IMG/VR virus record: IMGVR_UViG_3300037961_004868
Location: 1-33,054 of that record
Length of the DNA: 33,054 nt
DNA from: a virus
Reading direction: 5' to 3' (one strand)
Below are positions 13,061 through 32,977 of the stretch, in pieces; within the stretch, counting starts at the first letter, position 1; every line of letters starts with the position of its first letter. The notes under the pieces are model-generated. The model saw only the letters and a program-made list of their open reading frames with translations. It made no database searches and was not told the origin of the DNA. The translations under genes and the position numbers were made by a program.

Positions 13061-13080
13061 AATATACAGGTAAACAAAAA

Positions 13081-13344
13081 ATGGCTGATAGGATTCCACT
13101 AATTTTTAATACCAGTGTAGATCAGATTCAGGAAATCCCTAGTAATGATGCATTAGTTATACCTGATGTTGATTGTAGAGTCGGTCTCGTCACTGCAGAA
13201 ATTTATTCGTCAAAAGTTGTTTTTGATGGCGGAACAAGATCGTTATCAAATGACAATTTCTCATATTTCCAAGTCGGAGATATTCAGGTTGCTGCTGGAT
13301 CAACAATTCTTGTTGGTGCAGGCGTAAGTTATTTCGTTATCTAA
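13081..13344 (+). CDS. Small fibre-associated structural protein
   Basis: 87 residues, MADRIPLIFNTSVDQIQEIP at the start, then Val/Gly-rich beta-prone sequence ending LVGAGVSYFVI. The MADRIPLI(F/V)N opening and placement between two fibre genes are familiar from cyanophage structural clusters. AGGT lies a few bases upstream of the ATG. The protein is too short for a full fibre shaft; it may be a head-binding or connector module, or a small tip. No enzyme motif. Confidence 0.65.
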   Translation: MADRIPLIFNTSVDQIQEIPSNDALVIPDVDCRVGLVTAEIYSSKVVFDGGTRSLSNDNFSYFQVGDIQVAAGSTILVGAGVSYFVI

Positions 13345-13382
13345 TTTTTCACTTTCACCATTAAGTATTAAATTAACTAGCC

Positions 13383-14396
13383 ATGTCACAGTTAAGAGTT
13401 AATAACATTGCGGATACAGACGGCACTGGCCAGGTGTCACTTACATATGGTGCTGATGTTCCCACCCCAGGTCGAATTACTGTAGGTCTCTCTACAATTG
13501 GTCAAGAGGGTATTAACGCTGGTGTAAGTACCTTTACACAATTAAGTGTCCTTAATGACTTAGACCTCACAGGTAACATTTCACTGGGAGCTGGTGGTAC
13601 AATCAGAGGTGGCGGACAAAACCCCGCACTAGATCTCTCCGGTGATGCTTTTATCACTGGTGTTATCACTGCAACCACTTTCTTCGGTAGTGCTGCTGGT
13701 CTGACTGATCTCTCTCTTGAAGCTTCTGGAGAGTTCAACGCTGGTATTTCTTCAATGGTAGGAGTTGGAGTCACTTCAGGCATTGTTACCGCTTATAGTT
13801 GTGCCGTAAGTGGAGCTGGTGTTCAAATTGTTCACTCCATTCATGTGACAAACATTGGTAAAACTGATGCAAACGTCTACTGTTCTTGGGGACCTTCTGG
13901 AACCAATTACAACTATGGTTATGGAATCCCTGTTGTCGGTGGTGGTGCTTTAGAACTGATTCGTAGTCCAAAGATTCTTTCTCCTGGTGAACATATCAAC
14001 ATCTACTCAAATGTTGGTAATGTTGGAGGAGAATACTTACAAGCATTAGTTACGCTTGAAGATATTAATGCTGGATCTGCATATTTTAGTGGTGGAGTTG
14101 GATTAACTACCACCTTCACTGATTTGCACGTAACAACTGCAGATTCAATGATTCAAAGTATCTTACTTGCAAATGATTCTGAAGATGCTTTTGATGCTCG
14201 AGCAACTGTAGTATGGGCTAATGAATCTGATGTAACTCAGTATTATCTCTGCAGAGACCTGTTTATTCCTGGTGGTGCTTCTGTAGAAATTCTTGAGATG
14301 CCGAAGATGATTCCTAATGGTCATAAAATTAGAGTGTTATCAAGTGTCAGTGGTAGAGTAGACGCAACTGTGGCTGGAAGAACTGTAGCTTCTTGA
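13383..14396 (+). CDS. Tail-fibre protein with internally duplicated C-terminal domain
   Basis: 337 residues. The N-terminus MSQLRVNNIADTDGTGQVSL is a typical cyanophage fibre start, followed by a short VGLSTIG / TATTFFGSAAGLTDL shaft to about residue 115. The C-terminal part contains two related domains, about residues 145-229 and 254-337: IVHSIHVTN pairs with MIQSILLAN, VVGGGALELIRSPKILSPGEHI with FIPGGASVEILEMPKMIPNGHKI, and INIYSNVG with RVLSSVSG. This is a tandem duplication of one ~85-residue beta domain. It may form a paired or trimeric receptor-contact tip (inference). The stop is followed after 11 bases by the first RCC1-like gene. Confidence 0.75.
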   Translation: MSQLRVNNIADTDGTGQVSLTYGADVPTPGRITVGLSTIGQEGINAGVSTFTQLSVLNDLDLTGNISLGAGGTIRGGGQNPALDLSGDAFITGVITATTFFGSAAGLTDLSLEASGEFNAGISSMVGVGVTSGIVTAYSCAVSGAGVQIVHSIHVTNIGKTDANVYCSWGPSGTNYNYGYGIPVVGGGALELIRSPKILSPGEHINIYSNVGNVGGEYLQALVTLEDINAGSAYFSGGVGLTTTFTDLHVTTADSMIQSILLANDSEDAFDARATVVWANESDVTQYYLCRDLFIPGGASVEILEMPKMIPNGHKIRVLSSVSGRVDATVAGRTVAS

Positions 14397-14407
14397 GGTA
14401 AATAAAA

Positions 14408-16054
14408 ATGGGAATTAGTACAGAAAGAACCACACAAATCCATCAAACCAAAAGATGGAATAGAATAAGAGCTAGATCTTATCTGGCTACAAATGCACAG
14501 AAAGGAACATATAATACTAGTGAACTCAACTGGGTTGAGCACCAAGGTGAAATGGGCACTCCCCAACAACAAAATACTAGATTTAAATTTTGGGGTAATC
14601 TTAACTCTTCGATAAGATATGGTGGTGCGGGGATGAAACATAGCCACACCAGGTCGTCACCAGTTGTATTTGGAGGAGGAGGAGCATTCAGGGCCTTCGC
14701 TAGAATGGATCAATCATATAATGGTGCTGGTAATCAATACTGTGTTTATGTTTATGATTATGATGATAATCTTTGGGGATGGGGAGGAAATAATTATGGT
14801 CACTTTGGACACGGTGATACAATTATGAGATCATCTCCAGTTATATTAAATGGCTGGAATAGTCTTGGTCCCTTGAAAATGTTCAAGCATAGTCATTGGG
14901 GAGCAGTTGGTGTAACAACAGGCAGTGATCTTTATGTTTGTGGATATAATTATTATGGAAGATGGGGATTTACTGGGACTGAAGTATTTACGAACTGGGA
15001 CAATGATGGAAATTATATTGAGGGTTATAACACGGTTGGTGTTACGACACTAACCGAAGCCACTCATCTTAGTAAACCAGTTAGAATTGCTGGAAAGTGG
15101 AGAGACGCAAATCTTGGTGATAACACTCATACTAGAATCACTGATGAAGGTCAGTTTTTCATAGCTGGATATAATCATTATGGAATATTTGGTAACAATC
15201 AATCTGATGCCATTGGATACTCAAGTCCAGTAACAATTCCTGGTAAATTTAGAAGAATTGTTGAAAATACACATTATAATGTCTTCTTAGAAAATGATAA
15301 AGGACAAACCATGGTTACTGGAAATGAAACCAGTTCATGGTTTGGTAAAGGCGGTCCAAGTATACCTAGATCATCACCAGTTGCATTCCCTGGTACTTGG
15401 GCTAGGATTGTTCAATCTATTGGCGCTCATATCATGACCGACTATAGCGGTAACATTTGGGGAGTTGGACTGAATAATTATGGACAACTTGGTTTGGGAG
15501 ACAATAAAAACAGATCAAGACCTGTACTTATGTGGGCAGGACATCCAGATGGAACTGGAAAACCTGTAGAATTTAACTTCGCTGGTTCGGCATATGGTCA
15601 TTATTTCCTCCAAGATGATGATACATTATGGGGAGTTGGAATGAATTATAGTACTGGTACTATTTGGACATCTTCCGGCATGTCAGGTGCAGCTGCTGGA
15701 TGGTATCTGAACAGTTATTGGAGTTGTCAACCTGCATTCCTGTGGACTTCTCGTTCATTCATCAGATCATTTCCATGTTTTGTAAATGGTGGATGGAATG
15801 CAAAAATGGAAGATCCTGGAATTACTGAATGTAATGATCCATGGAAGTATAGTAGGCTCATTAGAGCCGGTTCTGCCGGTCTTATGGGATTCCATGTTCC
15901 TGGGGAAAGTGAGGGCACTGTTTGGTCTCAACATTATAGTGGAAGATCGGGAGAGTCTGATGTTCCATATTGGAATTTAAAAAATCGTGATATGTATACA
16001 TGGCATGATGATGATGTTGAACATCAAGGTGATTTCGGATATACGCCATCATGA
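14408..16054 (+). CDS. RCC1-type beta-propeller protein, copy 1
   Basis: 548 residues. After a basic N-terminus (MGISTERTTQIHQTKRWNRI) come at least five clear RCC1-type repeats with the core 'W-G-x-N-x-Y-G-x-x-G-x-G-D...RSSPV' (for example LWGWGGNNYGHFGHGD, IWGVGLNNYGQLGLGD, and FIAGYNHYGIFGNN), plus one or two degenerate ones toward the C-terminus. RCC1 repeats make a closed seven-bladed beta-propeller that binds partner proteins or glycans. GAGG 7-10 bases upstream is a ribosome binding site. Placement right after fibre genes suggests a virion or host-recognition role. The C-terminal ~100 residues are outside the regular repeat. There are two paralogues downstream. Confidence 0.85.
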   Translation: MGISTERTTQIHQTKRWNRIRARSYLATNAQKGTYNTSELNWVEHQGEMGTPQQQNTRFKFWGNLNSSIRYGGAGMKHSHTRSSPVVFGGGGAFRAFARMDQSYNGAGNQYCVYVYDYDDNLWGWGGNNYGHFGHGDTIMRSSPVILNGWNSLGPLKMFKHSHWGAVGVTTGSDLYVCGYNYYGRWGFTGTEVFTNWDNDGNYIEGYNTVGVTTLTEATHLSKPVRIAGKWRDANLGDNTHTRITDEGQFFIAGYNHYGIFGNNQSDAIGYSSPVTIPGKFRRIVENTHYNVFLENDKGQTMVTGNETSSWFGKGGPSIPRSSPVAFPGTWARIVQSIGAHIMTDYSGNIWGVGLNNYGQLGLGDNKNRSRPVLMWAGHPDGTGKPVEFNFAGSAYGHYFLQDDDTLWGVGMNYSTGTIWTSSGMSGAAAGWYLNSYWSCQPAFLWTSRSFIRSFPCFVNGGWNAKMEDPGITECNDPWKYSRLIRAGSAGLMGFHVPGESEGTVWSQHYSGRSGESDVPYWNLKNRDMYTWHDDDVEHQGDFGYTPS

Positions 16055-16875: not shown

Positions 16876-16898
16876 TTCTAAATTTTTTAAAACAATGA
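16876..16898 (+). repeat. Repeated 5' leader, copy B
   Basis: TTCTAAATTTTTTAAAACA runs into the ATG at 16895 and is the counterpart of 16089-16112. The A/T-rich leader without Shine-Dalgarno is shared by two neighbouring genes, suggesting either a common duplication boundary or a shared expression signal. Confidence 0.6.
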
Positions 16899-18244
16899 GA
16901 GTAGGAATTTCCACCAGAACAACCACCGGTGTTCATAAATTGAATCAACATTATCGCAATCATCGTGATAAAAAGTTTCAAGTTGCAGAACTTGCTGGTC
17001 AAGGATTGGTAGCTGGTTACAACGGCACCGGCGCGTTTGGACTTGGAGTGAGTGGCGGTTACAGATCTTCTCCAGTTATTTGGGGTGGAAAAGGTCAGCC
17101 AATGATGGATATTACTTTGGCAAATCATCAACAGCACATGATGCAAGCTGTTGATAATGACGGCGATTTATGGATGACTGGATATTCATATTATGGTCAA
17201 TTTGGTGCTAACCAAGGGAATACCTATTATTCATCACCAGTACAAGTTCCAGGAACATGGACAAAGAACAGAGGTGGATTTCAATATTACACTACAACTT
17301 TTTGGAAAGATGATGAAGTATATCTTGCTGGATATAATGGTGTTGGTCAATTAGGGAATGGTGATACAGTTCCTCGATCATCACCAGTTAAACTAGAAGG
17401 AAAATGGTTCGCTAGAATTACAAATGTATATTATGATAATCACGCTTTTGAAAATGGTGGCCGAGTATGGGTTTGGGGATCTAATTACTATGGAGTTCTT
17501 GGATTAAACAACACAACCACCTATAGTTCTCCAATCATACAATATGGTAGTCATCAATGGGCTTGTTATAGACCCGGTAATTATTTTATTCACGCTATTG
17601 ATGGTGGTACAGGTAAACTTTGGGCCTGGGGACGCAATGATACTGCTCAGTTAGGGCAAGCAAACGTTCAACCATACTCATATCCTGTTGTACTGCCTGG
17701 ATCGTGGAGTTACTTCCCACCGAAGACTCCAGCAGGAGTAGGATGGCATGCTGGAATTAGAGATGGAAATTGTTATGTGTGGGGATCCAATTCTCATGGA
17801 CAACTTGGTATTGGACATAGAACAATCGCAAGTTCTATGATTTTATTACCCGGTACATGGGCTAAAACACAACCTGGGTCCTATTTCACGCAGTATCTTA
17901 CTGCTAAAGGAGACTATTACATTTCCGGTTATGTTTGGGTAAGTGGTATCGGTCAATATAGATCATCGCCAACCAGACTTCCAGGCAATTATAAGTATGA
18001 TCCAACGATGCCTTTTAATTGCGTGGGAGGTCCTAGCCGAGGAGGTTATGTATATTCACAAGAAACTGGAAAAGAATATATGTATGGATCTAACTATTAT
18101 AGCGGTGTAACTTTTGATCCAGTAAAAGGTAATAATTATCAATCAAGTCCAACACTTGTTCGTGGTGATTGGGCAACTCATGGTATGACAGCTGAAGGTA
18201 TCGGTGGTGGTTATAACGCATTTGGCATTGGTTCAACTTGTTAA
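16895..18244 (+). CDS. RCC1-type beta-propeller protein, copy 2
   Basis: 449 residues, with an N-terminus (MRVGISTRTTTGVHKLNQHY) like that of copy 1. About eight repeat units follow, for example LVAGYNGTGAFGLG..RSSPV, LWMTGYSYYGQFG..YSSPVQVPG, YLAGYNGVGQLGNGD..RSSPV, VWVWGSNYYGVLG..YSSP, LWAWGRNDTAQLG, and CYVWGSNSHGQLGIG. This is enough for a closed seven-bladed propeller with an extra strand or blade. The protein is leaner than copy 1, being almost all repeat. It contains no signal peptide. Host-recognition or virion decoration is inferred from position; the RCC1 fold itself is well supported. Confidence 0.85.
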   Translation: MRVGISTRTTTGVHKLNQHYRNHRDKKFQVAELAGQGLVAGYNGTGAFGLGVSGGYRSSPVIWGGKGQPMMDITLANHQQHMMQAVDNDGDLWMTGYSYYGQFGANQGNTYYSSPVQVPGTWTKNRGGFQYYTTTFWKDDEVYLAGYNGVGQLGNGDTVPRSSPVKLEGKWFARITNVYYDNHAFENGGRVWVWGSNYYGVLGLNNTTTYSSPIIQYGSHQWACYRPGNYFIHAIDGGTGKLWAWGRNDTAQLGQANVQPYSYPVVLPGSWSYFPPKTPAGVGWHAGIRDGNCYVWGSNSHGQLGIGHRTIASSMILLPGTWAKTQPGSYFTQYLTAKGDYYISGYVWVSGIGQYRSSPTRLPGNYKYDPTMPFNCVGGPSRGGYVYSQETGKEYMYGSNYYSGVTFDPVKGNNYQSSPTLVRGDWATHGMTAEGIGGGYNAFGIGSTC

Positions 18245-18268: not shown

Positions 18269-18895
18269 ATGCCCATTGATTTTTTCAATCCATATGATTG
18301 GATTGCATTCTATCCAAATGCAATCCCAGAACAACAATTAGTTGAATTAAATAAAGTACCAGAAACAGATATAAATGGCCCATCAAGAGCTAACTATGGG
18401 CATAAGTATGATGAAACAGAAAAGCAAGAGGATAGTGTTAGGCTAACAAACTGGTATACAATGAATTATTCATTGTACGATCAAACAAAAAAATCTTTTG
18501 AAGGATTTGTCAATAATGTTATTTTACCCAGATATGGATTAAAAACTTTTAAATCCTTTGAAGACATACAATTTTTATCTTATCCTGTAGGAGGTCATTA
18601 TGTTGTTCATAATGATTCAGAGTATTTTAATGATGATCTAAATAAATGGGAAAGGGTTGCTCCAAGGGATATAAGTGTAATAATGTATCTCAATGATAAT
18701 TTTGAGGGTGGAGAACTAGAATTTCCAGAATTAGGATTAACAATTAAACCACAAAGAGGATTAATAATCACTTTTCCATCATATTGCGAATTTGCACATG
18801 GGGTTAAACCTGTTATAAAAGGAGAAAGAAATGCTTTAGTGACATGGATAGAAACTCATGATAAAATGTATGACATAGAACCAACTCCCAAATAA
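18269..18895 (+). CDS. 2-oxoglutarate/Fe(II)-dependent dioxygenase (prolyl-4-hydroxylase type)
   Basis: 208 residues. The double-stranded beta-helix signature of the 2OG-Fe(II) oxygenase family is complete: iron ligands H114 and D116 in VVHNDSEYF, distal H177 in FAHGV, and R187 in KGERNALVTW as the 2-oxoglutarate anchor. ISVIMYLNDNFEGGELEFPE between them matches the prolyl-4-hydroxylase-like subgroup. The substrate is unknown. Candidates are protein side chains of the neighbouring virion proteins or a sugar/glycan. It lies between a propeller gene and the TPR-glycosyltransferase gene. Such oxygenases are frequent in marine T4-like phages. A second, more divergent member is at 24089. Confidence 0.85.
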   Translation: MPIDFFNPYDWIAFYPNAIPEQQLVELNKVPETDINGPSRANYGHKYDETEKQEDSVRLTNWYTMNYSLYDQTKKSFEGFVNNVILPRYGLKTFKSFEDIQFLSYPVGGHYVVHNDSEYFNDDLNKWERVAPRDISVIMYLNDNFEGGELEFPELGLTIKPQRGLIITFPSYCEFAHGVKPVIKGERNALVTWIETHDKMYDIEPTPK

Positions 18896-18929: not shown

Positions 18930-20405
18930 ATGACAAAAAGACTCAGAGAAGATCCTATTGAAAATCACATGTATCGAATTCCCGAATCTTCTGTCGGGCC
19001 ACTGTACGATGACCAAGAAGAATTTGGTAAAAATTTAATTCACAAACTAAAAGATATTTCATTTGATTTAGATAGAATTGGAGAATTTGAAGCAGCTGCA
19101 GCTATTGGTGATCTTGTTCTTAGAAGAATGCCAGATATGCAAATGTCTCTTGGTTGTGCAAGATGGTATTATGAATTAAGAAAGTATAAAAAATCACTCA
19201 AATATCTGGAATTTGCACTAAATAATGATCCGCAAAATCCAGAGATTCGATTAAATTACGCTAGAGTTTTATATTTTGATAAGCAGGCGGACAAATCTCT
19301 CGAAATCATGAACGAGTTAGTGGAAGAACATCCACAACTTTTGGATGATGATCAGATTTGTGTCGATTATTCAATGTTTAAAAGTGCCGTTGGTGATGTC
19401 AAAGGATCAATGGAATGTTTAGATAAACTTCCATCTGGATCCGAAGAAGGAGCTCAATTCGATTTTAATAGAGGATGGCACTATTTTTCTTTCGATCAAT
19501 TTAAGAAAGGATTTCAACATATTGATCGTGGAAGACCTTTAAATGTTTGGGGTAATTTCGATGTCCTAGAAGTTGAGGCAAAAATATCTCCTAACGATAT
19601 CTGGAAAAGAGGCGAAAAAGTTGATACAATTGCATATTACCTTGAAGGTGGTGTTGGTGATGAGTTTATCTTCTTGCGATATGTAAATTATTGGAAACAA
19701 TATTGCAATACTTTAAAAATCTTCTGCAATAAAAATATCCGAGATTTTTTGATCGAATGTGGTTACGAGAATGTATATACAAGAGATGAAATTCCATTTC
19801 ATTATGTTGACAAAGTTGTTCCTGCTATGTCGGCACCTCTTTATGGAGATTTTGATACCCCAAAAGATCATACAACTTTCCCATATCTTGTAAGAACTCC
19901 AGATAAAAATTCTCCCGCAGTTAAAAAAATGAGAGAAATTGCTGGAGATAAGAAAAAAGTAATAATTAAATGGGCAGGAAATCCAGATTTTGAACATGAA
20001 CAATTCAGAGTATTTCCTTTAGAATATCTTCTTGAACTAGAAAAATTAAATGATAAGATTCAAATCTTCCATGTTCAATTAGAACATAATGAAGGTCTTC
20101 CGAAAAATAGCAGTGTTTATGATCTTACAGAATACATTGATGATTGGAGAGATACATATGATATTTTCGACGAAGCAGACATAGTTATAAGTTCTTGCAC
20201 ATCTACCGCTCATTTGGCAGCTGCCATGGGTAAAAGATCATGTGTAATTTTGCCAATCGTTCCATATTTCTGTTGGGCTTCAGACAAAGATGTTTGGTAT
20301 GAAGATAATCTAACTCTATGCAAACAGACCAAATATGGCGATGAAGGATGGAAAGAAGCTATTGATAAAGCGATTAACATTGTTGAGGAGGAGTTATGTC
20401 AATAA
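18930..20405 (+). CDS. TPR protein fused to heptosyltransferase-like (GT9-type) domain
   Basis: 491 residues. The N-terminal ~200 residues contain tetratricopeptide-like helix pairs (for example YYELRKYKKSLKYLEFALNN with DPQNPEIRLNYARVLY), a protein-binding scaffold. From about residue 235 a GT-B-like domain begins (YYLEGGVGDEFIFLRY), continuing with IIKWAGNPDFEHEQFRVFPL and ending with DIVISSCTSTAHLAAAMGK and LPIVPYFCWASDKDVWY. The last block matches the nucleotide-sugar site of the ADP-heptose:LPS heptosyltransferase (GT9) fold. TPR-GT fusions of this kind are common in bacteria and often glycosylate protein. With HldE- and HldD-like genes nearby, an ADP-heptose donor is a plausible inference. 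Its end overlaps the next gene by 10 bases. Confidence 0.75.
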   Translation: MTKRLREDPIENHMYRIPESSVGPLYDDQEEFGKNLIHKLKDISFDLDRIGEFEAAAAIGDLVLRRMPDMQMSLGCARWYYELRKYKKSLKYLEFALNNDPQNPEIRLNYARVLYFDKQADKSLEIMNELVEEHPQLLDDDQICVDYSMFKSAVGDVKGSMECLDKLPSGSEEGAQFDFNRGWHYFSFDQFKKGFQHIDRGRPLNVWGNFDVLEVEAKISPNDIWKRGEKVDTIAYYLEGGVGDEFIFLRYVNYWKQYCNTLKIFCNKNIRDFLIECGYENVYTRDEIPFHYVDKVVPAMSAPLYGDFDTPKDHTTFPYLVRTPDKNSPAVKKMREIAGDKKKVIIKWAGNPDFEHEQFRVFPLEYLLELEKLNDKIQIFHVQLEHNEGLPKNSSVYDLTEYIDDWRDTYDIFDEADIVISSCTSTAHLAAAMGKRSCVILPIVPYFCWASDKDVWYEDNLTLCKQTKYGDEGWKEAIDKAINIVEEELCQ

Positions 20406-21201: not shown

Positions 21202-22533
21202 ATGATTAGTACCTCAGGACCTAGTGCTCAGAGACCAAAAAGAAACGAGGGTGTATATAACTTAGATGAAGTCGTAAGACTTAATCATGCCAACCCTAAA
21301 GGACCGAGGGGAGAAGCAACTCATTGGTGGTGGGCCGGATATATACCCTACTGGGGAAATCCTTGCCATGCAGGAGGATCGACTGGTGCGGTATATTGGA
21401 GTTCTCCTGTTCTAGCAAGAGGCAGGTGGAAACAAGTTTGTAGTACAGCATATATACACTGGGCAATTAGAGATGATGGAACAATGTGGTCCTCTGGAGG
21501 ACCCAATACTTATGGCATCCGCGGCGACGGAACTGCTGGTAGTCCAAATAACTATGCATCATCTCCTACTCAAGTTGCAGGAACAAATTGGTTCTCATTA
21601 AGGGACAATGGTATTGATTCCATAATCACTACTAACGCACAACATACTAGTAGTATGATGGCCATGAAAGAAGATAAAAGTCTTTTTGCATGGGGAAGAA
21701 ATAATAGTGCAAACTTAGGATTGAACGATACAGTTGATCGATCAGCGCCAGTACAAATTCCAGGTAGCAACTGGACCGATTATGGATTCAATAACTATAG
21801 TGGTTTCGCATTTAAAGATAATGGAGAACTATGGGAATGGGGAACAAATGGATACATTCATGGAACAGATCATGATTTAGTTGCTGGGTATTATGCAAGA
21901 TCTTCACCGTACCTTATTCCTGGATCCTGGGCAGAAGCTTCAAAGGGGCACGATCATACTGTTGCTATTAAACAGGATGGTACTGGATGGTGCTGGGGCC
22001 AAAACAGTTATGGTCAATTAGGAAATAATGATAATATCCCACGTTCTTCACCGGTTCAATTCACTGCTGGATCGGGTCTTTACCAAAGATGTTTTGCTGG
22101 AGGATCCTGTACAGTATTCATTGATACTGATGGACATTCTTGGTATAGTGGGGACAACAGAACTGGAGGGGCATTTAGATTTAATAGTAACGTTATAAGT
22201 TCTCCAGTATTAATGCCAGGACACTGGGATGGTTTTAGATTGGGCAACCAGGGCAATCTGGGTAATTTTGGTAGAAGTCGTGAAGATGGCAACTGGTGGT
22301 TTGTTGGTTATGATTATGCTGGAAGAGCTGGTCTTTGCAGAACTAGACAGGACAGTTTTAATTCAGCGGCCGCATACAGATCTGCTCCGTGTAGAATTGG
22401 ATACAGATGGACAGACATTGCAAATGATTATTATTCCACATGGTTCACCAAAGATAACTCATATAATTATCCAATGATGCATGGTCCAACAGGTGGTGGA
22501 CAAGGAGCTTCAGATAGACACGGTAGACTTTAA
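21202..22533 (+). CDS. RCC1-type beta-propeller protein, copy 3
   Basis: 443 residues. After ~45 residues of basic N-terminus there are seven repeat units, fitting a single seven-bladed propeller: WWWAGYIPYWG..YWSSPV, MWSSGGPNTYGIRGDG..YASSPTQV, LFAWGRNNSANLGLND..RSAPVQIPG, LWEWGTNGYIHG..ARSSP, GWCWGQNSYGQLGNND..RSSPVQF, SWYSGDNRTGGAF..ISSPVLMPG, and WWFVGYDYAGRAGL..YRSAP. It is preceded by an exact late promoter box, so a virion or late role is likely. It is separated from copies 1 and 2 by the oxygenase and two glycosyltransferase-type genes, as if the propeller and modification genes move or evolve together. Confidence 0.85.
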   Translation: MISTSGPSAQRPKRNEGVYNLDEVVRLNHANPKGPRGEATHWWWAGYIPYWGNPCHAGGSTGAVYWSSPVLARGRWKQVCSTAYIHWAIRDDGTMWSSGGPNTYGIRGDGTAGSPNNYASSPTQVAGTNWFSLRDNGIDSIITTNAQHTSSMMAMKEDKSLFAWGRNNSANLGLNDTVDRSAPVQIPGSNWTDYGFNNYSGFAFKDNGELWEWGTNGYIHGTDHDLVAGYYARSSPYLIPGSWAEASKGHDHTVAIKQDGTGWCWGQNSYGQLGNNDNIPRSSPVQFTAGSGLYQRCFAGGSCTVFIDTDGHSWYSGDNRTGGAFRFNSNVISSPVLMPGHWDGFRLGNQGNLGNFGRSREDGNWWFVGYDYAGRAGLCRTRQDSFNSAAAYRSAPCRIGYRWTDIANDYYSTWFTKDNSYNYPMMHGPTGGGQGASDRHGRL

Positions 22534-22551
22534 TTTCATTATATTTTTATT

Positions 22552-23238
22552 ATGCACTTACTACGATCAAATTCAAGAGAATGCAACAAAGCATTCATCA
22601 TTTCACTTAGAGATAACGAAGAATCAGAAAAACTTACTAACCGATGTTCGGAATCATGTAAAAACGTTGGTCAAAACTATGAAGTATTTTATGGTTTTGA
22701 CGGAAATAGTGGTAAAATAATCATACCTCCAGAACTAGAAAACCAACAGTGGTTAAATTGGTTCAAGGTTACAACAGATCTCATTAGTCCCACTCAAATT
22801 TCTTGTTTTTTGAGTCATATGGCTTTGTGGTCTAAATGTCTGGAATTGGATGAACCTATTGTAATTCTGGAACATGATGCACTTATGGTTAAAAAGTATG
22901 ATTTTCATACTCACTATAATGCAATTTGTTATCTTGGTGGACTAGAACAATTTGAAAATAGTATGCCAAAACCAGATACATATGATGGTCCTCCTCCAAT
23001 GGGGTCTGAGTGTAATAAAAGAGGGTTTTTTATCTGTAGGGCTCATGCATATGCCATTGATCCAGCAGTTGCAAAGAATTTATTGTCATATGTTCTTCAA
23101 AATGGACTATATACTTCATTGGATGTTGCAATAAAATCAGATATTTTTAACATATATCAAGATGATTTTTATGCGTATGACAAACCAGGAATCTCCACAA
23201 TTCATAAAGATTGGAGATATTTAAAATCTGAAATTTAA
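22552..23238 (+). CDS. Glycosyltransferase family 25 protein
   Basis: 228 residues. The GT25 (LPS/LOS glycosyltransferase, LgtB/Lex1-like) layout is visible: an N-terminal strand AFIISLRDNEESE, then SPTQISCFLSHMALWSKC (~79-96) and PIVILEHDA (~102-110), where the usual ED.D motif reads E-H-D. GFFICRAHAYAIDPAVAKNL follows as in family members. The known family transfers galactose or glucose to lipooligosaccharide or to collagen hydroxylysine. It starts 18 bases after propeller copy 3. The His in the acidic motif is unusual and may change metal use. A role in glycosylating a virion protein or cell-surface glycan is inferred. Confidence 0.75.
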   Translation: MHLLRSNSRECNKAFIISLRDNEESEKLTNRCSESCKNVGQNYEVFYGFDGNSGKIIIPPELENQQWLNWFKVTTDLISPTQISCFLSHMALWSKCLELDEPIVILEHDALMVKKYDFHTHYNAICYLGGLEQFENSMPKPDTYDGPPPMGSECNKRGFFICRAHAYAIDPAVAKNLLSYVLQNGLYTSLDVAIKSDIFNIYQDDFYAYDKPGISTIHKDWRYLKSEI

Positions 23239-24088: not shown

Positions 24089-24733
24089 ATGTTAAAAAAC
24101 ATAATAGTTGTCGATGATTTTCATCCAGATCCCGACAGTTACCGGAAATATGTTCTAGAAAATTTTACATGGCAAGATAAAAATACAAATACAACTTGGC
24201 CTGGATCTGATTCTGAAGAAACAATGAGTGATTCAGAAATCACTTCTATAATATCTTCAATTCTTGGTGAAGGTGTATGGTCAAATGGCAGTAATAAAAA
24301 TTGCTATTTTAGAATAGGACTTGATGGAGATGTTGGATCTCAAAATGTACACTTCGATCCCAGTAAACCAGAGGGAGATCCATTAATATGGGCAGGAGTT
24401 TTATATTTGACTCCTGGAGAAGAGAGGCCAGAATCTGGAACTAAATTTTATAAACATAAAAAAACTGGATGGACTGAATCGCCATCAAGAAAACAAGCGT
24501 TTGAATATGGAATAAAAGACGATGAAGACATGCTTCGTTTTTTTGAATCCGATGGAAAAGACATGAACATGTGGGAAGAAACTATGAAAGTTTCTTTCAA
24601 ATACAACAGACTTATTTTATTCCGACCTTGGTTATTTCATGCAAATGGAAAACTATTTGGAAATACCATGGAAACTGGTAGACTAGTACAATTATTCTTT
24701 TTAACTGGAGAAAAACTCAATGAAATTGAATGA
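24089..24733 (+). CDS. 2OG-Fe(II) oxygenase-like protein (DUF6445-like)
   Basis: 214 residues. H88-F-D90 in NVHFDP, H184 in WLFHANGK and R198 in ETGRLVQLFFL have the order and spacing of a cupin-fold 2OG-Fe(II) oxygenase. Between them WAGVLYLTPGEERPESGTKF fits the conserved strands and turn. The N-terminus IIVVDDFHPDPDSYRKYVLEN is typical of these small phage/bacterial proteins. It is more divergent than the enzyme at 18269 and likely has another substrate, possibly a sugar or amino acid in the neighbouring pathway. The end overlaps the methyltransferase gene by 14 bases. Confidence 0.65.
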   Translation: MLKNIIVVDDFHPDPDSYRKYVLENFTWQDKNTNTTWPGSDSEETMSDSEITSIISSILGEGVWSNGSNKNCYFRIGLDGDVGSQNVHFDPSKPEGDPLIWAGVLYLTPGEERPESGTKFYKHKKTGWTESPSRKQAFEYGIKDDEDMLRFFESDGKDMNMWEETMKVSFKYNRLILFRPWLFHANGKLFGNTMETGRLVQLFFLTGEKLNEIE

Positions 24734-25412
24734 ATTATTTGAACACCACGACGGCCGAGAGTGTGGCAAGTGGAAACATTACTTCGATGTTTATGAAAGA
24801 TACTTCCAATCTTATGTTGGGAAAGAAGTATACATTCTAGAACTTGGCGTATGTCAAGGTGGAAGTCTTCAACTATGGAAAAAATACTTTGGAGATAAGG
24901 CTAAAGTTGTAGGTGTTGACATTGATCCAAGAGCAAAATATGAAGAAGATCAAATTGAGGTAGAAATTGGTGATCTTCGAGATTCAAAATTTTTAAAGTA
25001 TTTGATTGAAAAACATGGTAGACCAGATATTATCATCGATGATGCTAGCCATGAAACACAACAAACTCTTTGGACTTTCGGATTTTTCATGCCAACATTA
25101 GATGATAATGGAATATATGTAATTGAAGACACACATACGCACTATCGTCCAGAGTATAATGGAGGAACCAAAAATCCATTTAATATCATTAATGCATTAT
25201 CTGCAATGACTCATGATGTAAATGTTAATCATATTGAGGAAGCATTCACTCCTGGATTAGGATCTGTTAAATCAATTTCATATTACGATAGTCTTGTAAT
25301 TCTTGAAAAAGGCAATACAGAAACTGAACCCGTCTTTAGAGGAATAAGTCAATATAATGATAAAGTAACCGCAGAAGAAGAGGCAGTTCAAATGCAAACT
25401 AGACCACGATGA
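24720..25412 (+). CDS. Class I SAM-dependent methyltransferase (MycE/CmcI-like)
   Basis: 230 residues. Motif I ILELGVCQGGSLQLW (~39-53), acidic loop VVGVDIDP (~63-70), IIIDDASHE (~104-112) and IYVIEDTHT (~132-140) correspond to the SAM-binding Rossmann core and the metal-binding acidic residues of the mycinamicin 2''-O-methyltransferase / cephalosporin hydroxylase-like group. That group commonly O-methylates sugars. Its place just before the nucleotide-heptose genes makes sugar O-methylation plausible. It overlaps the gene before by 14 bases and the gene after by 4 (ATGA). A second SAM methyltransferase-like gene is at 28092. Confidence 0.75.
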   Translation: MKLNELFEHHDGRECGKWKHYFDVYERYFQSYVGKEVYILELGVCQGGSLQLWKKYFGDKAKVVGVDIDPRAKYEEDQIEVEIGDLRDSKFLKYLIEKHGRPDIIIDDASHETQQTLWTFGFFMPTLDDNGIYVIEDTHTHYRPEYNGGTKNPFNIINALSAMTHDVNVNHIEEAFTPGLGSVKSISYYDSLVILEKGNTETEPVFRGISQYNDKVTAEEEAVQMQTRPR

Positions 25413-25810
25413 GTAAAACTATTTTCATTAATGGATGTTTTGATGTGATTCATCGTGGTCACATCGAACTTTTCAAATTTGCTAGTTACCTTGGAGACAG
25501 ACTCATTGTAGCAATCGATGAAGATGATCGGATTCGTAAGTCAAAAGGACCAAAAAGACCGATAAACATATTAGAAGATAGAATGTATGTTTTACGATCA
25601 ATTAAGTATGTTGATGAAGTAGAACATTTTGGTTCTGATGAGGAATTGGAAAACCTTGTCAAGAAATATAATCCTGATATAATGATAGTAGGTTCCGATT
25701 GGATTGGAAAAAAAGTTATAGGATCACAATATGCAAAAACCATTCGATTCTTCAACAGAATTGGACACTATTCCACCACAAACATCGTTGAAGGTTCTTC
25801 TTATCGGTGA
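25409..25810 (+). CDS. rfaE2: HldE C-terminal-like nucleotidyltransferase (heptose-1-phosphate adenylyltransferase type)
   Basis: 133 residues, about the length of the C-terminal domain of bifunctional HldE. The nucleotidyltransferase signature is NGCFDVIHRGH (H15-R-G-H18), followed by LGDRLIVAIDEDDR, a GPKRPIN block, EDRMYVL, a PDIMIVGSDW segment and the STTNI motif (122-126) characteristic of the HldE/RfaE2 group. The known reaction is ATP plus D-glycero-beta-D-manno-heptose 1-phosphate to ADP-heptose. Related cytidylyltransferases share HxGH, so the exact substrate is inferred from the STTNI motif and the adjacent kinase. The 3' end overlaps the kinase gene by 80 bases in another frame. 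Confidence 0.8.
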   Translation: MSKTIFINGCFDVIHRGHIELFKFASYLGDRLIVAIDEDDRIRKSKGPKRPINILEDRMYVLRSIKYVDEVEHFGSDEELENLVKKYNPDIMIVGSDWIGKKVIGSQYAKTIRFFNRIGHYSTTNIVEGSSYR

Positions 25811-26528
25811 ATCTTGCCAAGATGTATATCGTTATGGAATTTGTAATAGAGTAAGTCCAGAAGCTCCCGTTCCTGTACTAGATTTTGTAAAAGAAAAAAT
25901 TAGTTATGGAATGGCAGCTAATGTTAAAAGTAATCTCGAATCCTTTGGTATTGCTGTTGACTTTTTGTCAAACAAATCTGAAGATATCATTCGGAGAAGA
26001 TTTGTTGATCTTAAATGTTATCAACAATTAATGAGAGAAGATGTTAACAATCATATAAAACCATTGATTCCTCAATTTTTTGGTGAATATGATGCTGTTG
26101 TTTTTTCTGATTATGATAAAGGATTGATTGATAATGAATTTATTTCATTTGTAATTGATTCTGTAAAATGTCCTATCTTTGTTGACACAAAGAAAAAAGA
26201 TCTATCTGCCTATAGTGGTTGTATCTTAAAAATCAATAAAAAAGAATATGATGAGTCAGTATCTATTCCATCCAATAGTGAACTCATTGTCACTCTTGGA
26301 TCTGAAGGTGCTTTTTATCGAGAAAAAACATTTTCAACACCAAAAGTAGATGTCTATGATGTCACTGGTGCTGGAGATGTTTTTTTAGCTACATTAGTTT
26401 ATACTTATCTAAAAACTAGAGATTTCAATCTATCAATTCCAGAATCAATTAAGATGGCAACACGTTCTGTTCAACATACAGGAACATATACACTTACACA
26501 AGAGGATGTAAATGAAGTACGTTATTGA
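25731..26528 (+). CDS. rfaE1: HldE N-terminal-like PfkB sugar kinase (heptose-7-phosphate kinase type)
   Basis: 265 residues. RVSPEAPVPV (~37-46) is diagnostic of the RfaE1/HldE kinase domain. A modified GGAANV site (GMAANV) follows, then VVFSDYDKGLI and the PfkB signature DVTGAGD with the catalytic base D216. The tail RSVQHTGTYTLTQEDV also fits. The known reaction phosphorylates D-glycero-D-manno-heptose 7-phosphate at C1. From memory of E. coli HldE, the region between the GxxANV site and NQQL (here YQQL) is about 20-25 residues shorter, so the lid/sugar region is reduced. ATG 25731 has AGGA seven bases upstream; a TTG at 25788 would avoid most of the overlap. A 17-base overlap joins it to the next gene. 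Confidence 0.8.
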   Translation: MQKPFDSSTELDTIPPQTSLKVLLIGESCQDVYRYGICNRVSPEAPVPVLDFVKEKISYGMAANVKSNLESFGIAVDFLSNKSEDIIRRRFVDLKCYQQLMREDVNNHIKPLIPQFFGEYDAVVFSDYDKGLIDNEFISFVIDSVKCPIFVDTKKKDLSAYSGCILKINKKEYDESVSIPSNSELIVTLGSEGAFYREKTFSTPKVDVYDVTGAGDVFLATLVYTYLKTRDFNLSIPESIKMATRSVQHTGTYTLTQEDVNEVRY

Positions 26529-26847
26529 CATTGATGGTACAATTTGTGATAAATCAGAAGATATGTGGCATGATGGAGATTATTCACATTCCGTTCCAAA
26601 AAAAGATAGAATTATTGAAATAAATAAACTCTATGATGATGGTCATGAAATTACTTATCTGACCGCTAGAGGAATGGGTAGACACAAGAATTCTTCTACA
26701 CTTGCACACAAAGAATTTTATAATCTAACATTCAATCAATTAATTCAGTGGGGATGTAAGTTTCATGCTCTACATCTAGGAAAACCTGCTGGTGATCTTT
26801 ATATTGATGACAAAGGTATTAATGCAAATGACTTCTTCACAAAATGA
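26512..26847 (+). CDS. HAD-superfamily phosphatase (capsule/sugar-phosphate type)
   Basis: 111 residues. All four HAD motifs are present: D6-I-D8-G-T, T51 in TYLTARG, K91 in LGKPAGD and D99-D100 in YIDDKGIN. There is no large cap, so small or extended substrates are likely. Similar short HAD proteins occur in bacterial capsule loci. In the heptose pathway a HAD phosphatase (GmhB) removes the 7-phosphate from heptose-1,7-bisphosphate between the HldE kinase and adenylyltransferase steps. Position directly after the kinase gene suggests such a role, but this protein is much shorter than GmhB (~190 residues) and belongs to another HAD subgroup. The function assignment is inference. Confidence 0.7.
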   Translation: MKYVIDIDGTICDKSEDMWHDGDYSHSVPKKDRIIEINKLYDDGHEITYLTARGMGRHKNSSTLAHKEFYNLTFNQLIQWGCKFHALHLGKPAGDLYIDDKGINANDFFTK

Positions 26848-27199
26848 CCCAATAAAATTCGTTCCTAAAGGATGGGGATATGAAAAGTGGATCACAAATG
26901 GTTCGCTTTACTGTGGCAAAATTTTATGGATGTGTAAAGACAAACAATGTTCTTGGCATTATCATCATAAAAAAGATGAAGTTTTCTACGTACAAAGTGG
27001 AAAAATTAGGATATACTGGAGCAACTTTGACGATTTTGAAATGGCTTATGTCAAAGAATTAAATCCAGGTGAAAAGTTTCATGTCCCTCCTGGTATGAGA
27101 CATAGGATGAAAGCACTAGAAGATACTGAATTATTTGAATTCAGTACAGAACATTTTGAAGATGATAGTTATAGAATTATAATTGGAGATACTCTTTAA
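26828..27199 (+). CDS. Cupin-fold metal-binding protein (sugar-isomerase-like)
   Basis: 123 residues from ATG 26828 (MTSSQNDPIKFVPKGWGYEK); the frame is open further upstream but only inside the HAD gene, and the WGYEKW start is characteristic. H44-Y-H46 with E51 (WHYHHKKDEVF) and H92 (PPGMRHRM) form the standard cupin metal site. The small size and the W-G-Y-E-x-W opening resemble the C-terminal cupin of mannose-6-phosphate isomerase type II and single-domain sugar cupins. It could isomerise or epimerise a sugar phosphate. It overlaps the HAD gene by 20 bases and runs tail-to-tail into the opposing epimerase gene, overlapping it by 23 bases. Confidence 0.7.
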   Translation: MTSSQNDPIKFVPKGWGYEKWITNGSLYCGKILWMCKDKQCSWHYHHKKDEVFYVQSGKIRIYWSNFDDFEMAYVKELNPGEKFHVPPGMRHRMKALEDTELFEFSTEHFEDDSYRIIIGDTL

Positions 27200-27962
27200 T
27201 TGTAGTAAAGTCATATCCATCTATCCATTGCATATTTGCAATCGTATATTCTTGATACTTTCCAATAAGATGCTGAGGGAACGGAATTGTTACAATTTCC
27301 GCTCCCTCTTTTTTAGCAATAATTTTTGCCACATCGAGAAAACTAATTGGTGTTCCAGTTCCGAGATCGTAAATTCCAGACGATGCTTCATTGTTCAGGA
27401 CAATATCAACCACGTCAGAAACACACACAAAATCCCTCCAGAATCGATCAGAACCTTCAAAAACTTTGATTACACCAGTATCCCTAGCCTGGTTAGTAAA
27501 CGTCGTTACAGGACTACTCTGACTCCCCTTATTCTCTTTTGATCCATATACATTGAAGTATCTAAATCCCTGGATAAATTTAAACTTATCAAAATTATCC
27601 TGAACAAACATGTCCACGATATATTTGGAAGTAGCATAGTAATTAAGTGGATTAATTTCATCAATGAATCTTCCGTAAACCGATGCAGACGATGCGTATT
27701 TTACTGGAATTTGATATTGAATCGCTTTTTTAAAAAGTTGAATCGAAAATTCAATATTGTACTTATTAATTTTATTCCAATCAGTCTCAACTGTAGAAGA
27801 AATTGCTCCCTGATGAATAATTATTTCGACTTCATTCCAATTATCAAAGTCATTAATGAAATCAAAACAATCGCCAATTTCTACACAGTAAATATGTTTA
27901 TATGAAAAATTATTCAACATATGATTTCCAATAAATCCCTTTGCGCCTGTAAGGATAATCAT
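27177..27962 (-). CDS. hldD: HldD-type ADP-glyceromanno-heptose 6-epimerase
   Basis: 261 residues on the minus strand, the only clear minus-strand gene in the window. Extended SDR features: G6-AK-G9-FI-G12 nucleotide-binding loop at the N-terminus, KYASSASVYG (~88-97), Y109-xxx-K113 in NYYATSKYIV, RYFNVYGSKENKGSQSSPV (~134-152), KVFEGSDRFWRDFV (~166-179), YDLGTGTPISFLDVA, and PFPQHLIGKYQEYT. The FNVYG...KGS and FEGS-x-x-F-x-RDFV blocks are specific to HldD/RfaD, which converts ADP-D,D-heptose to ADP-L,D-heptose. E. coli HldD is about 310 residues, so this is a short version. It has its own upstream promoter at 27984-28013. Confidence 0.85.
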   Translation of the reverse strand: MIILTGAKGFIGNHMLNNFSYKHIYCVEIGDCFDFINDFDNWNEVEIIIHQGAISSTVETDWNKINKYNIEFSIQLFKKAIQYQIPVKYASSASVYGRFIDEINPLNYYATSKYIVDMFVQDNFDKFKFIQGFRYFNVYGSKENKGSQSSPVTTFTNQARDTGVIKVFEGSDRFWRDFVCVSDVVDIVLNNEASSGIYDLGTGTPISFLDVAKIIAKKEGAEIVTIPFPQHLIGKYQEYTIANMQWIDGYDFTTIKEYLQL

Positions 27963-31423: not shown

Positions 31424-32977
31424 ATGATTATATTGGGATATAATTCTGGTTCTCCTCATGATGGTTCAGTTGCCATTATTAAAGATGGAAAGATAATCTT
31501 TTCGATTGCAAGTGAAAGATTGACAGGAAAAAAACATCAATCAGGTATTGACAAAAAAATAATCAATTATGCACTAAGAAAAACTAATCTTGATTCAAGT
31601 GAAATTGATTATGTTGCTATTGCTGGTGATGGACATAATATGAAAATTGATTCTTTACTTGAAGCGGAAGATGGTATCTATCATCTTACTGATTTTAATA
31701 GACCAAATGAATACTTTTCTTGGAAAGGAGAAACTTTTTTAATCCCACACCATATCTGTCATACGGCAGCAGCATATTATACAAGTGGTTTTGATACTGC
31801 GATTTGTTATTCTCTTGATACATCTGACTTTGACTATCATATTCTTGGACCAAAGTTAAATAACATGATATGTAAATATCAAAATCATGAAATAAAAGAC
31901 GCATATATTCCAGGACACATGTATGGCGTTGATTATGCAAGAGTTTGTCAACATATTGGATTGATTCCTTGTTTATCTAAAGCAGGAACAATGATGGGAC
32001 TATCATCTTTTGGAACACCAGAGATGCTAATTCCTAAAGAAGAAATGGTTTCGGATAATCCAGATGATTATCCTAAAATTGATGATGATTTTACTGCTGC
32101 TATAAAATACGCTTACAGTTCTCAGAAACATCTTGAGAATAATGTAATTGACTATCTCATACAGTTAAAAGAAGAAAACCCAGACCAAGAAAATCTTTGC
32201 CTGTCTGGTGGTACATTTTTAAATTGTAATTTGAATGGGAAAATTGTAGAAAAGAATATATTTAAAAATGTTCATCATTTTCCTGCTTGTGGTGATGATG
32301 GTCTTGCAGTTGGTGCTGCACTTTATGCTTATCATACGGTATTAGGACAACCTCTTGTTAAACATGAAGATAGTCAACTTGTTTATCTTGGTGGATCAAA
32401 TTTTCTTGTTGATGAAATACCTTTTGAAAAAACTATTGACGCTCTGATCGATGGTAAAATTGTTGCTTGGGCAAACGGAAGATCTGAATTTGGTCCAAGA
32501 GCATTAGGAAATAGATCGATTCTTGCAGATCCTCGTAACTCTTGGAGTAGAGATAAAATTAATCAAATGATTAAAAATAGGGAGTGGTTTAGACCATTTG
32601 CTCCTATTTGTCTTGAAGAACATTATCAAGAGTATTTTGATTTCCCCAAACCAAGTCCATATATGTTATATACGGCAAAAGTAAAAAAACCTGGAGATAT
32701 TCCTGCATGTGTCCATGTTGATGGGACTGCAAGATTCCAAACGGTGAATAAAGAGCAAAATCCAGACATGCACAAGTTAATATCAATGTTCTATGAAAGA
32801 ACGGGAGTTCCGATTCTCCTTAATACAAGTTTGAATAATAGAGGTAAACCAATTTGTGAAATATCAGATCACGTTTTCTGGTTCTTACAAGACTCGGAAC
32901 TTGATTGTGCTAACATCTTTGGACAATGGTACGATAAGAGAGTGGACACTTGGATTACTGACACAAGACAGTCCTAG
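31424..32977 (+). CDS. Carbamoyltransferase, NodU/CmcH family
   Basis: 517 residues, slightly shorter than the usual 550-600. The N-terminal Kae1/TobZ-like part starts ILGYNSGSPHDGSVAII and includes the metal-binding PHHICHTAAAYY (H109, H113), SLDTSDFD, AGTMMGLSSFG and NLCLSGGTFLNCNLNGK with ACGDDGLAVGAA. The C-terminal part has WANGRSEFGPRALGNRSIL, WFRPFAPI, ARFQTV and GVPILLNTSLNNRGKPI. These are the family's signatures for transfer of a carbamoyl group from carbamoyl phosphate via carbamoyl-adenylate to a hydroxyl, usually on a sugar. Family members are known in cyanophages. With the glycosyltransferases nearby, it may carbamoylate a surface or virion glycan (inference). Confidence 0.9.
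   Translation: MIILGYNSGSPHDGSVAIIKDGKIIFSIASERLTGKKHQSGIDKKIINYALRKTNLDSSEIDYVAIAGDGHNMKIDSLLEAEDGIYHLTDFNRPNEYFSWKGETFLIPHHICHTAAAYYTSGFDTAICYSLDTSDFDYHILGPKLNNMICKYQNHEIKDAYIPGHMYGVDYARVCQHIGLIPCLSKAGTMMGLSSFGTPEMLIPKEEMVSDNPDDYPKIDDDFTAAIKYAYSSQKHLENNVIDYLIQLKEENPDQENLCLSGGTFLNCNLNGKIVEKNIFKNVHHFPACGDDGLAVGAALYAYHTVLGQPLVKHEDSQLVYLGGSNFLVDEIPFEKTIDALIDGKIVAWANGRSEFGPRALGNRSILADPRNSWSRDKINQMIKNREWFRPFAPICLEEHYQEYFDFPKPSPYMLYTAKVKKPGDIPACVHVDGTARFQTVNKEQNPDMHKLISMFYERTGVPILLNTSLNNRGKPICEISDHVFWFLQDSELDCANIFGQWYDKRVDTWITDTRQS

Follow-up and report, generated by a model that had tools for sequence, protein, structure and literature searches.

A compact gene set in a T4-like cyanophage fragment probably makes ADP-heptose from host sedoheptulose 7-phosphate, with a small cupin that bears putative metal ligands predicted to stand in for the canonical isomerase GmhA as a non-orthologous enzyme. 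The stretch that we analysed (the window) comprises 33,054 nucleotides of the 36,163-base IMG/VR record IMGVR_UViG_3300037961_004868, in which tail-fibre-type genes and many sugar-modification genes surround the heptose set. We place the probability of this reading at about 0.6, all of the catalytic activities being predicted from sequence and models. By extension, the cupin family would probably constitute a second, non-homologous sedoheptulose-7-phosphate isomerase, present in cyanophages and in heptose makers that lack GmhA (a Binatia-like class, some Planctomycetota, Patescibacteria and DPANN archaea), and cyanophages would bring a complete pathway to hosts that mostly have none. The heptose set consists of five mutually overlapping genes at 25409–27962, four on the plus strand and the HldD-like gene on the minus strand, listed here with one neighbour outside the heptose core:

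25409–25810, plus strand: HldC-like D,D-heptose-1-phosphate adenylyltransferase (TIGR02199, 6.5e-32; phrog_7878; HxGH and STTNI motifs)
about 25788–26528, alternative start possible at 25731, plus strand: HldA-like D,D-heptose-7-phosphate kinase of about 246 amino acids (TIGR02198, 1.2e-34; structure match 4E84)
26512–26847, plus strand: HAD-family phosphatase, presumed to take the GmhB step (TIGR01689, 1.4e-5; profile matches to 9iqw and 1xpj)
26828–27199, plus strand: single-domain cupin, putative sedoheptulose-7-phosphate isomerase (Cupin_2, 1.6e-8; conserved motifs; genomic context)
27177–27962, minus strand: HldD-like ADP-D-glycero-D-manno-heptose 6-epimerase (TIGR02197, 6.9e-55; YxxxK and HKGS-type lysine)
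24720–25412, plus strand: S-adenosylmethionine-dependent methyltransferase, neighbour (Methyltransf_24, 2.5e-6; phrog_21658)

The proposed route would begin with sedoheptulose 7-phosphate drawn from the host Calvin and pentose-phosphate cycle. The cupin would convert it to D-glycero-D-manno-heptose 7-phosphate, the job of GmhA, to which it is unrelated in fold; the short HldA would then phosphorylate C1, the HAD protein would remove the 7-phosphate in the role of GmhB (its presumed substrate), and HldC would transfer AMP to give ADP-D,D-heptose. Where present, HldD would epimerise C6 to yield ADP-L,D-heptose, and phage glycosyltransferases might then place the heptose on a surface glycan of phage or host, the presumed acceptor.

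The HldC-, HldA- and HldD-like proteins are very probably heptose enzymes, as profile, motif and structure comparisons suggest. Their best NCBIfam matches are TIGR02199 (110 bits), TIGR02198 (120 bits) and TIGR02197 (186 bits), all below the respective equivalog cut-offs of 181.5, 345 and 274.6 bits; the three phage proteins are short and divergent, and by the TIGR02197 cut-off rule the epimerase is an HldD homologue and not an equivalog. Active-site motifs are nevertheless kept. Aligned with Salmonella HldE, the HldC-like protein retains HxGH and the C-terminal STTNI of the C-domain, and the kinase retains RxSPEAPVPV (RVSPEAPVPV in the window), QQLxRxD, SDYxKG, NxxE and GAGD (DVTGAGD in the window), with a deletion of about 26 residues after the GMAAN motif. 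Kinase and epimerase are both shorter than their bacterial relatives. In all 10 phage epimerases aligned with Salmonella HldD, the Rossmann motif GxxGxxG, the catalytic YxxxK and the HKGS-loop lysine that acts as second base are conserved. The AlphaFold model of the kinase is confident (predicted local distance difference test, pLDDT, 96.3), and Burkholderia HldA fills the first seven rows of its Foldseek list. Likewise, the best solved structure for the kinase family profile is HldA (4E84, 95 bits; next match 44), and the best four PDB matches of the epimerase family profile are all HldD (1EQ2, 2X6T, 4EJ0 and 3SXP; 198 to 119 bits), followed by WbgU as the first non-HldD structure at 71 bits. 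The original prediction, made from the DNA alone, had named an HldE C-terminal-like adenylyltransferase, an HldE N-terminal-like kinase and an HldD epimerase, and had looked to profile and structure searches for best matches to HldE and HldD. All three assignments hold and the best matches are the expected ones, although the scores fall short of the equivalog cut-offs and an expected GT9 domain went undetected. It had also placed the start of the set at 24720; the block holds from 25409 to 27962, and the methyltransferase that fills 24720–25412 has no counterpart at the other cassette loci in the comparison.

Such cassettes were already known, and the new part concerns the 'missing' first step. 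A 2020 paper described heptose genes in cyanophage SynMITS9220M01 (PMC7378029), and the cassette recurs in about 15 cyanophages since P-SSM2. With tblastn the kinase was matched in 33 phage records, cyanophages with few exceptions. P-SSM2 (PSSM2_309-313), S-CAM1 and S-CAM3 keep the gene order of the window, as do S-SSM7 and Sf-FS3 apart from insertions; across the last two, P-TIM68, S-SM2, S-T4 and Sf-CH8 the block shows insertions, rearrangements or losses. Because the five genes overlap and their order recurs in P-SSM2, S-CAM1 and S-CAM3, the cluster is no chance arrangement. Consistent with the earlier observation that GmhA could not be recognised, a search for the GmhA domain SIS_2 (PF13580) detected its E. 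coli positive control but gave no match in the nine complete phage genomes with the cassette that it covered, nor in two partial records or the window contig. The cupin, by contrast, is present in every isolated cassette-bearing cyanophage checked. This includes S-SM2; a reading of that phage as carrying a cupin-less cassette proved wrong, as its cupin lies a few kb from the remaining genes.

Among 38 IMG/VR viral loci that extend 4 kb or more to either side of the cupin, HldC occurs in 35, HldA in 35, the HAD protein in 36, HldD in 21 and GmhA in none; as the loci were retrieved through the cupin, these counts show what accompanies the cupin and not how often the cassette contains one. The core is thus cupin, HAD, HldA and HldC. 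We rejected HldD as a constant part, since it is found in only 21 of the 38 loci and was not detected in S-T4 or Sf-CH8. The final product therefore need not be the L,D form, which amends the earlier proposal of ADP-L,D-heptose: ADP-heptose is well supported, HldD and HldA being the closest structures, and the L,D configuration is not required. Beside the heptose genes, S-SM2 (L007) and P-TIM68 (L008) carry transketolase-like and zinc alcohol dehydrogenase genes, and S-SM2 a class II aldolase gene as well; these neighbours might feed or modify the sugar.

That the cupin might replace GmhA had been raised as one option; it is now the best-supported part of the original prediction and its real novelty, on the strength of gene fusions, HddA/HddC neighbours and mutual exclusion with GmhA. 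A scan of 84,980 species genomes recovered 62 cellular cupin loci, some of which are phage contigs binned into metagenome-assembled genomes (MAGs); a cupin-bearing contig from a Prochlorococcus single-amplified genome (L025) was likewise discarded as host DNA, as it looks like a phage contig. In one Woesearchaeota (DPANN) genome the cupin is fused to HldA (TIGR02198, 342 bits), with a GT9 gene before and GmhB (TIGR00213, above cut-off) after it, and in a second a single GmhB-cupin-HldC protein (TIGR02199, 168 bits) follows HldA and GT9. GmhA was matched in neither genome at E <= 1e-5. With TIGR02198, the cupin's full-length HldA partners score 342 and 378 bits in two archaea. Two phages, Bellamy and SynMITS9220M01, have the cupin flanked by HddA (NF049969, 279 and 287 bits) on one side and by an HddC-like protein (about 60 bits) on the other; a search of the other fetched loci for HddA and HddC found none. 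HddA and HddC are the GHMP kinase and guanylyltransferase of the GDP-heptose route. D-glycero-D-manno-heptose 7-phosphate, which GmhA produces, is an intermediate of the ADP and GDP routes alike; beyond it the two diverge except for a shared phosphatase step. As the cupin joins both sets and is no phosphatase, it is most simply an isomerase.

Cellular genomes point the same way. Of 50 cupin-bearing genomes, 45 have an HldA or HldE match at E <= 1e-10. We compared cupin and GmhA across 145 genomes of the Binatia-like class to which genome G006 belongs, counting a cupin above 130 bits (a threshold chosen post hoc at the observed gap from 137 to 92 bits) and GmhA at 160 bits or more. All 34 cupin-positive genomes encode HldE, and among HldE-positive genomes GmhA occurs in 0/34 with the cupin and 64/86 without it. 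Counting any GmhA match at E <= 1e-20, the figures become 4/34 and 67/86. In 149 genomes of Planctomycetota (the phylum of G038), with both proteins called at E <= 1e-20, HldE is present in 11/11 cupin-positive genomes, and among HldE-positive genomes GmhA is found in none of these 11 compared with 105 of the 115 without the cupin. Fisher tests give p ~2e-15 for the class and p ~2e-10 for the phylum, values that are too small because the genomes are related, many are MAGs and some are incomplete.

The fold and motifs of the cupin are compatible with ketol-isomerase chemistry. The family signature is YCGK, CS.H.H..K.E and EFST.H.D.DS.R, and the putative metal ligands H40, H42, E47 and H88 are conserved together with the YCGK and EFST motifs; the AlphaFold model (pLDDT 95.6) is a barrel with a putative 3-His/1-Glu site. 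In Foldseek, a D-lyxose isomerase takes the top four rows, some of them complexes with D-fructose and D-mannose; phosphomannose isomerases come close as well. In profile alignments, YC.K, a second Cys, H.H and K.E.F are common to the phage cupins and D-lyxose isomerase 2Y0O, and L-ribose isomerase 5AVP has most of them. The window cupin scores 17.5 bits with PF07385 and 14.4 bits with PF01050, both under the Pfam threshold, and an archaeal cupin domain exceeds the thresholds of both families (Lyx_isomer PF07385, 25.4 against 20.8; MannoseP_isomer PF01050, 25.4 against 23.6). Cupin phosphomannose isomerases convert fructose 6-phosphate to mannose 6-phosphate, and among C7 sugars the corresponding reaction turns sedoheptulose 7-phosphate into D,D-manno-heptose 7-phosphate. 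The literature searched held no relevant account of a cupin associated with GmhA, with sedoheptulose-7-phosphate isomerase or with ADP-heptose, and as far as that literature goes the proposed role is new. A more distant cupin-superfamily domain (32 bits) was seen in a deltaproteobacterial MAG (L059, 13286–14809), a few kb from the heptose-linked cupin.

Public labels on two of the genes look wrong. RefSeq and PHROGs (phrog_1238) label the HAD protein 'phosphoheptose isomerase', which would complete the pathway on paper; we reject the label, since TIGR01689, 9iqw and 1xpj identify a HAD phosphatase. The labels 'cysteine dioxygenase' (phrog_7851; RefSeq phage records) and 'nucleotidyltransferase' on the cupin are equally unsupported; the present reading, if true, would correct both phrog_1238 and phrog_7851. 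The HAD matches are weak (TIGR01689, 25 bits; HAD-IIIA, 14.6 bits), and the GmhB profile TIGR00213 does not match the window protein, but the HAD motif residues D6, D8, T51, K91 and D100 are invariant. A HAD phosphatase for the GmhB step, as first suggested, therefore stands as regards the phosphatase, and its substitution for GmhB is inferred from its position.

Hosts seldom appear able to supply the missing enzyme. Among 121 sampled genomes of the picocyanobacterial family, an HldE-like kinase occurs in 20 and a GmhA-like protein in 27 (about 10 above 160 bits), leaving 94 without a GmhA-like match at E <= 1e-20. Host-supplied GmhA, the other option first raised, is accordingly unlikely as a general answer. 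The earlier remark that marine Synechococcus lipopolysaccharide (LPS) is reported to lack heptose agrees with the reported composition in strains WH8102 and CC9311 (PMC4515613). Given how few hosts have HldE-like or GmhA-like genes and that these two LPS types lack heptose, the phage must usually bring the whole pathway. Sedoheptulose 7-phosphate itself would come from the host Calvin cycle.

Several observations weigh against an isomerase role for the cupin, besides the post hoc threshold and the relatedness of genomes noted above. An HldA-like kinase at E <= 1e-10 is missing from five of the 50 cupin genomes, and one of the 50, a Cytophagaceae genome, encodes a true GmhA above the curated cut-off. 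Four cupin genomes of the Binatia-like class carry a SIS protein of 147–152 bits, and a lower-scoring cupin subfamily of that class coexists with GmhA; those of its 65–92-bit members that we read lack the YCGK and FSTxH motifs. At 13077–15273, apart from its HddA-cupin-HddC set, SynMITS9220M01 (L195) has an HldC-like protein grouped with another GHMP kinase and with a SIS protein that weakly resembles GmhA (47 bits), perhaps a further heptose-type pathway. One cupin lies beside NeuB-like genes (L145, near 7091–8677) and another alone among nuclease-like genes (L155, 4664–5032), settings that point to possible other uses of the family. The HAD family occurs in 385 phage records, many enterobacterial, and because it is spread over hundreds of phages of other hosts, only position links it to heptose. 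Finally, VIA-align places CapF first at a tied Z with isomerases within about 1 Z unit, and because the cupin fold is common to many enzyme types, fold alone is indecisive.

The leading rival view is that the cassette makes ADP-heptose and the cupin is instead an anomerase, a nucleotide-sugar epimerase or a binding protein, with the isomerase provided by the host or a promiscuous enzyme. Cupins do include many sugar epimerases and binding domains across which the Z scores tie, and some hosts carry GmhA-like genes; we nonetheless judge this unlikely, as the 94 host-family genomes without GmhA speak against it and it leaves unexplained both the absence of GmhA from cupin-bearing cells and the presence of the cupin in ADP- and GDP-type sets alike. 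More improbable still is that the HldE and HldD homologues act on another sugar phosphate, such as a hexose or deoxy-heptose, for which the cupin would be the ketol-isomerase. Every score is below its equivalog cut-off, certain kinases linked to the cupin diverge considerably (L059, L074) and transketolase-like genes lie nearby in P-TIM68 and S-SM2, yet HldD and HldA are by far the best PDB matches, the HldD motif residues are retained, and the families of the HddA/HddC and GmhB partners are specific to heptose. The shortened kinase and epimerase could also be taken as signs of decaying or non-functional cargo, a notion to which we give very little credence: reading frames are intact, catalytic motifs are conserved in diverse viral relatives and the AlphaFold models are confident despite the deletions.

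Other glycan-related genes lie in the window. A TPR-GT9-type transferase had been proposed at 18930; searches of Pfam (including PF01075), NCBIfam and PDB sequences returned only tetratricopeptide repeats (TPRs) and no GT9 domain at 18930–20405, a missing match that is no proof of absence. A GT25-family glycosyltransferase is encoded at 22552–23238, a NodU-like carbamoyltransferase at 31424–32977, and a 2-oxoglutarate-Fe(II) oxygenase-like protein (18269–18895) and a DUF6445 protein (24089–24733) flank the glycan genes. The tail-fibre region contains three RCC1-like repeat proteins, at 14408–16054, 16895–18244 and 21202–22533, the first and last scoring with RCC1 profiles and the middle one recognised by eye only.

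If the cupin is the isomerase, a gap in heptose biosynthesis would be filled for several little-studied phyla and a widespread marine virus group, and searches for heptose producers based on GmhA would miss cupin-bearing organisms. Cyanophages may then tap the host sedoheptulose 7-phosphate pool for a sugar reported missing from marine Synechococcus LPS, destined for a virion or cell-surface glycan.

Compared with the GmhA/GmhB-type ADP-heptose pathway, the window likewise encodes homologues of HldA, HldC and HldD in which the active-site motifs are conserved; it differs in that kinase and transferase are short, separate proteins, an EcbF/BcbF-like HAD protein would take the place of GmhB, SIS-fold GmhA is absent and, as argued here, replaced by the cupin, and the pathway is phage-borne with presumed hosts that mostly lack it. 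The GDP-D-glycero-D-manno-heptose pathway (GmhA, HddA, GmhB, HddC) is linked to the window by the cupin of Bellamy and SynMITS9220M01, whereas the window has a PfkB-type HldA and HldC and no GHMP-type HddA or HddC. With the cupin ketol-isomerases (D-lyxose/D-mannose isomerases 7NZO–7NZQ and 2Y0O; archaeal phosphomannose isomerases 7ZVM and 7ZVY), the window cupin has in common the fold and the expected chemistry, ketose to manno-type aldose, but it is only about 20–26% identical and its proposed substrate is a C7 phosphate. The cyanophage cassettes of P-SSM2, S-CAM1, S-CAM3, S-SSM7, Sf-FS3 and P-TIM68 hold the same five genes in mostly the same order, with a NodU-like carbamoyltransferase gene nearby in all of them except P-TIM68.

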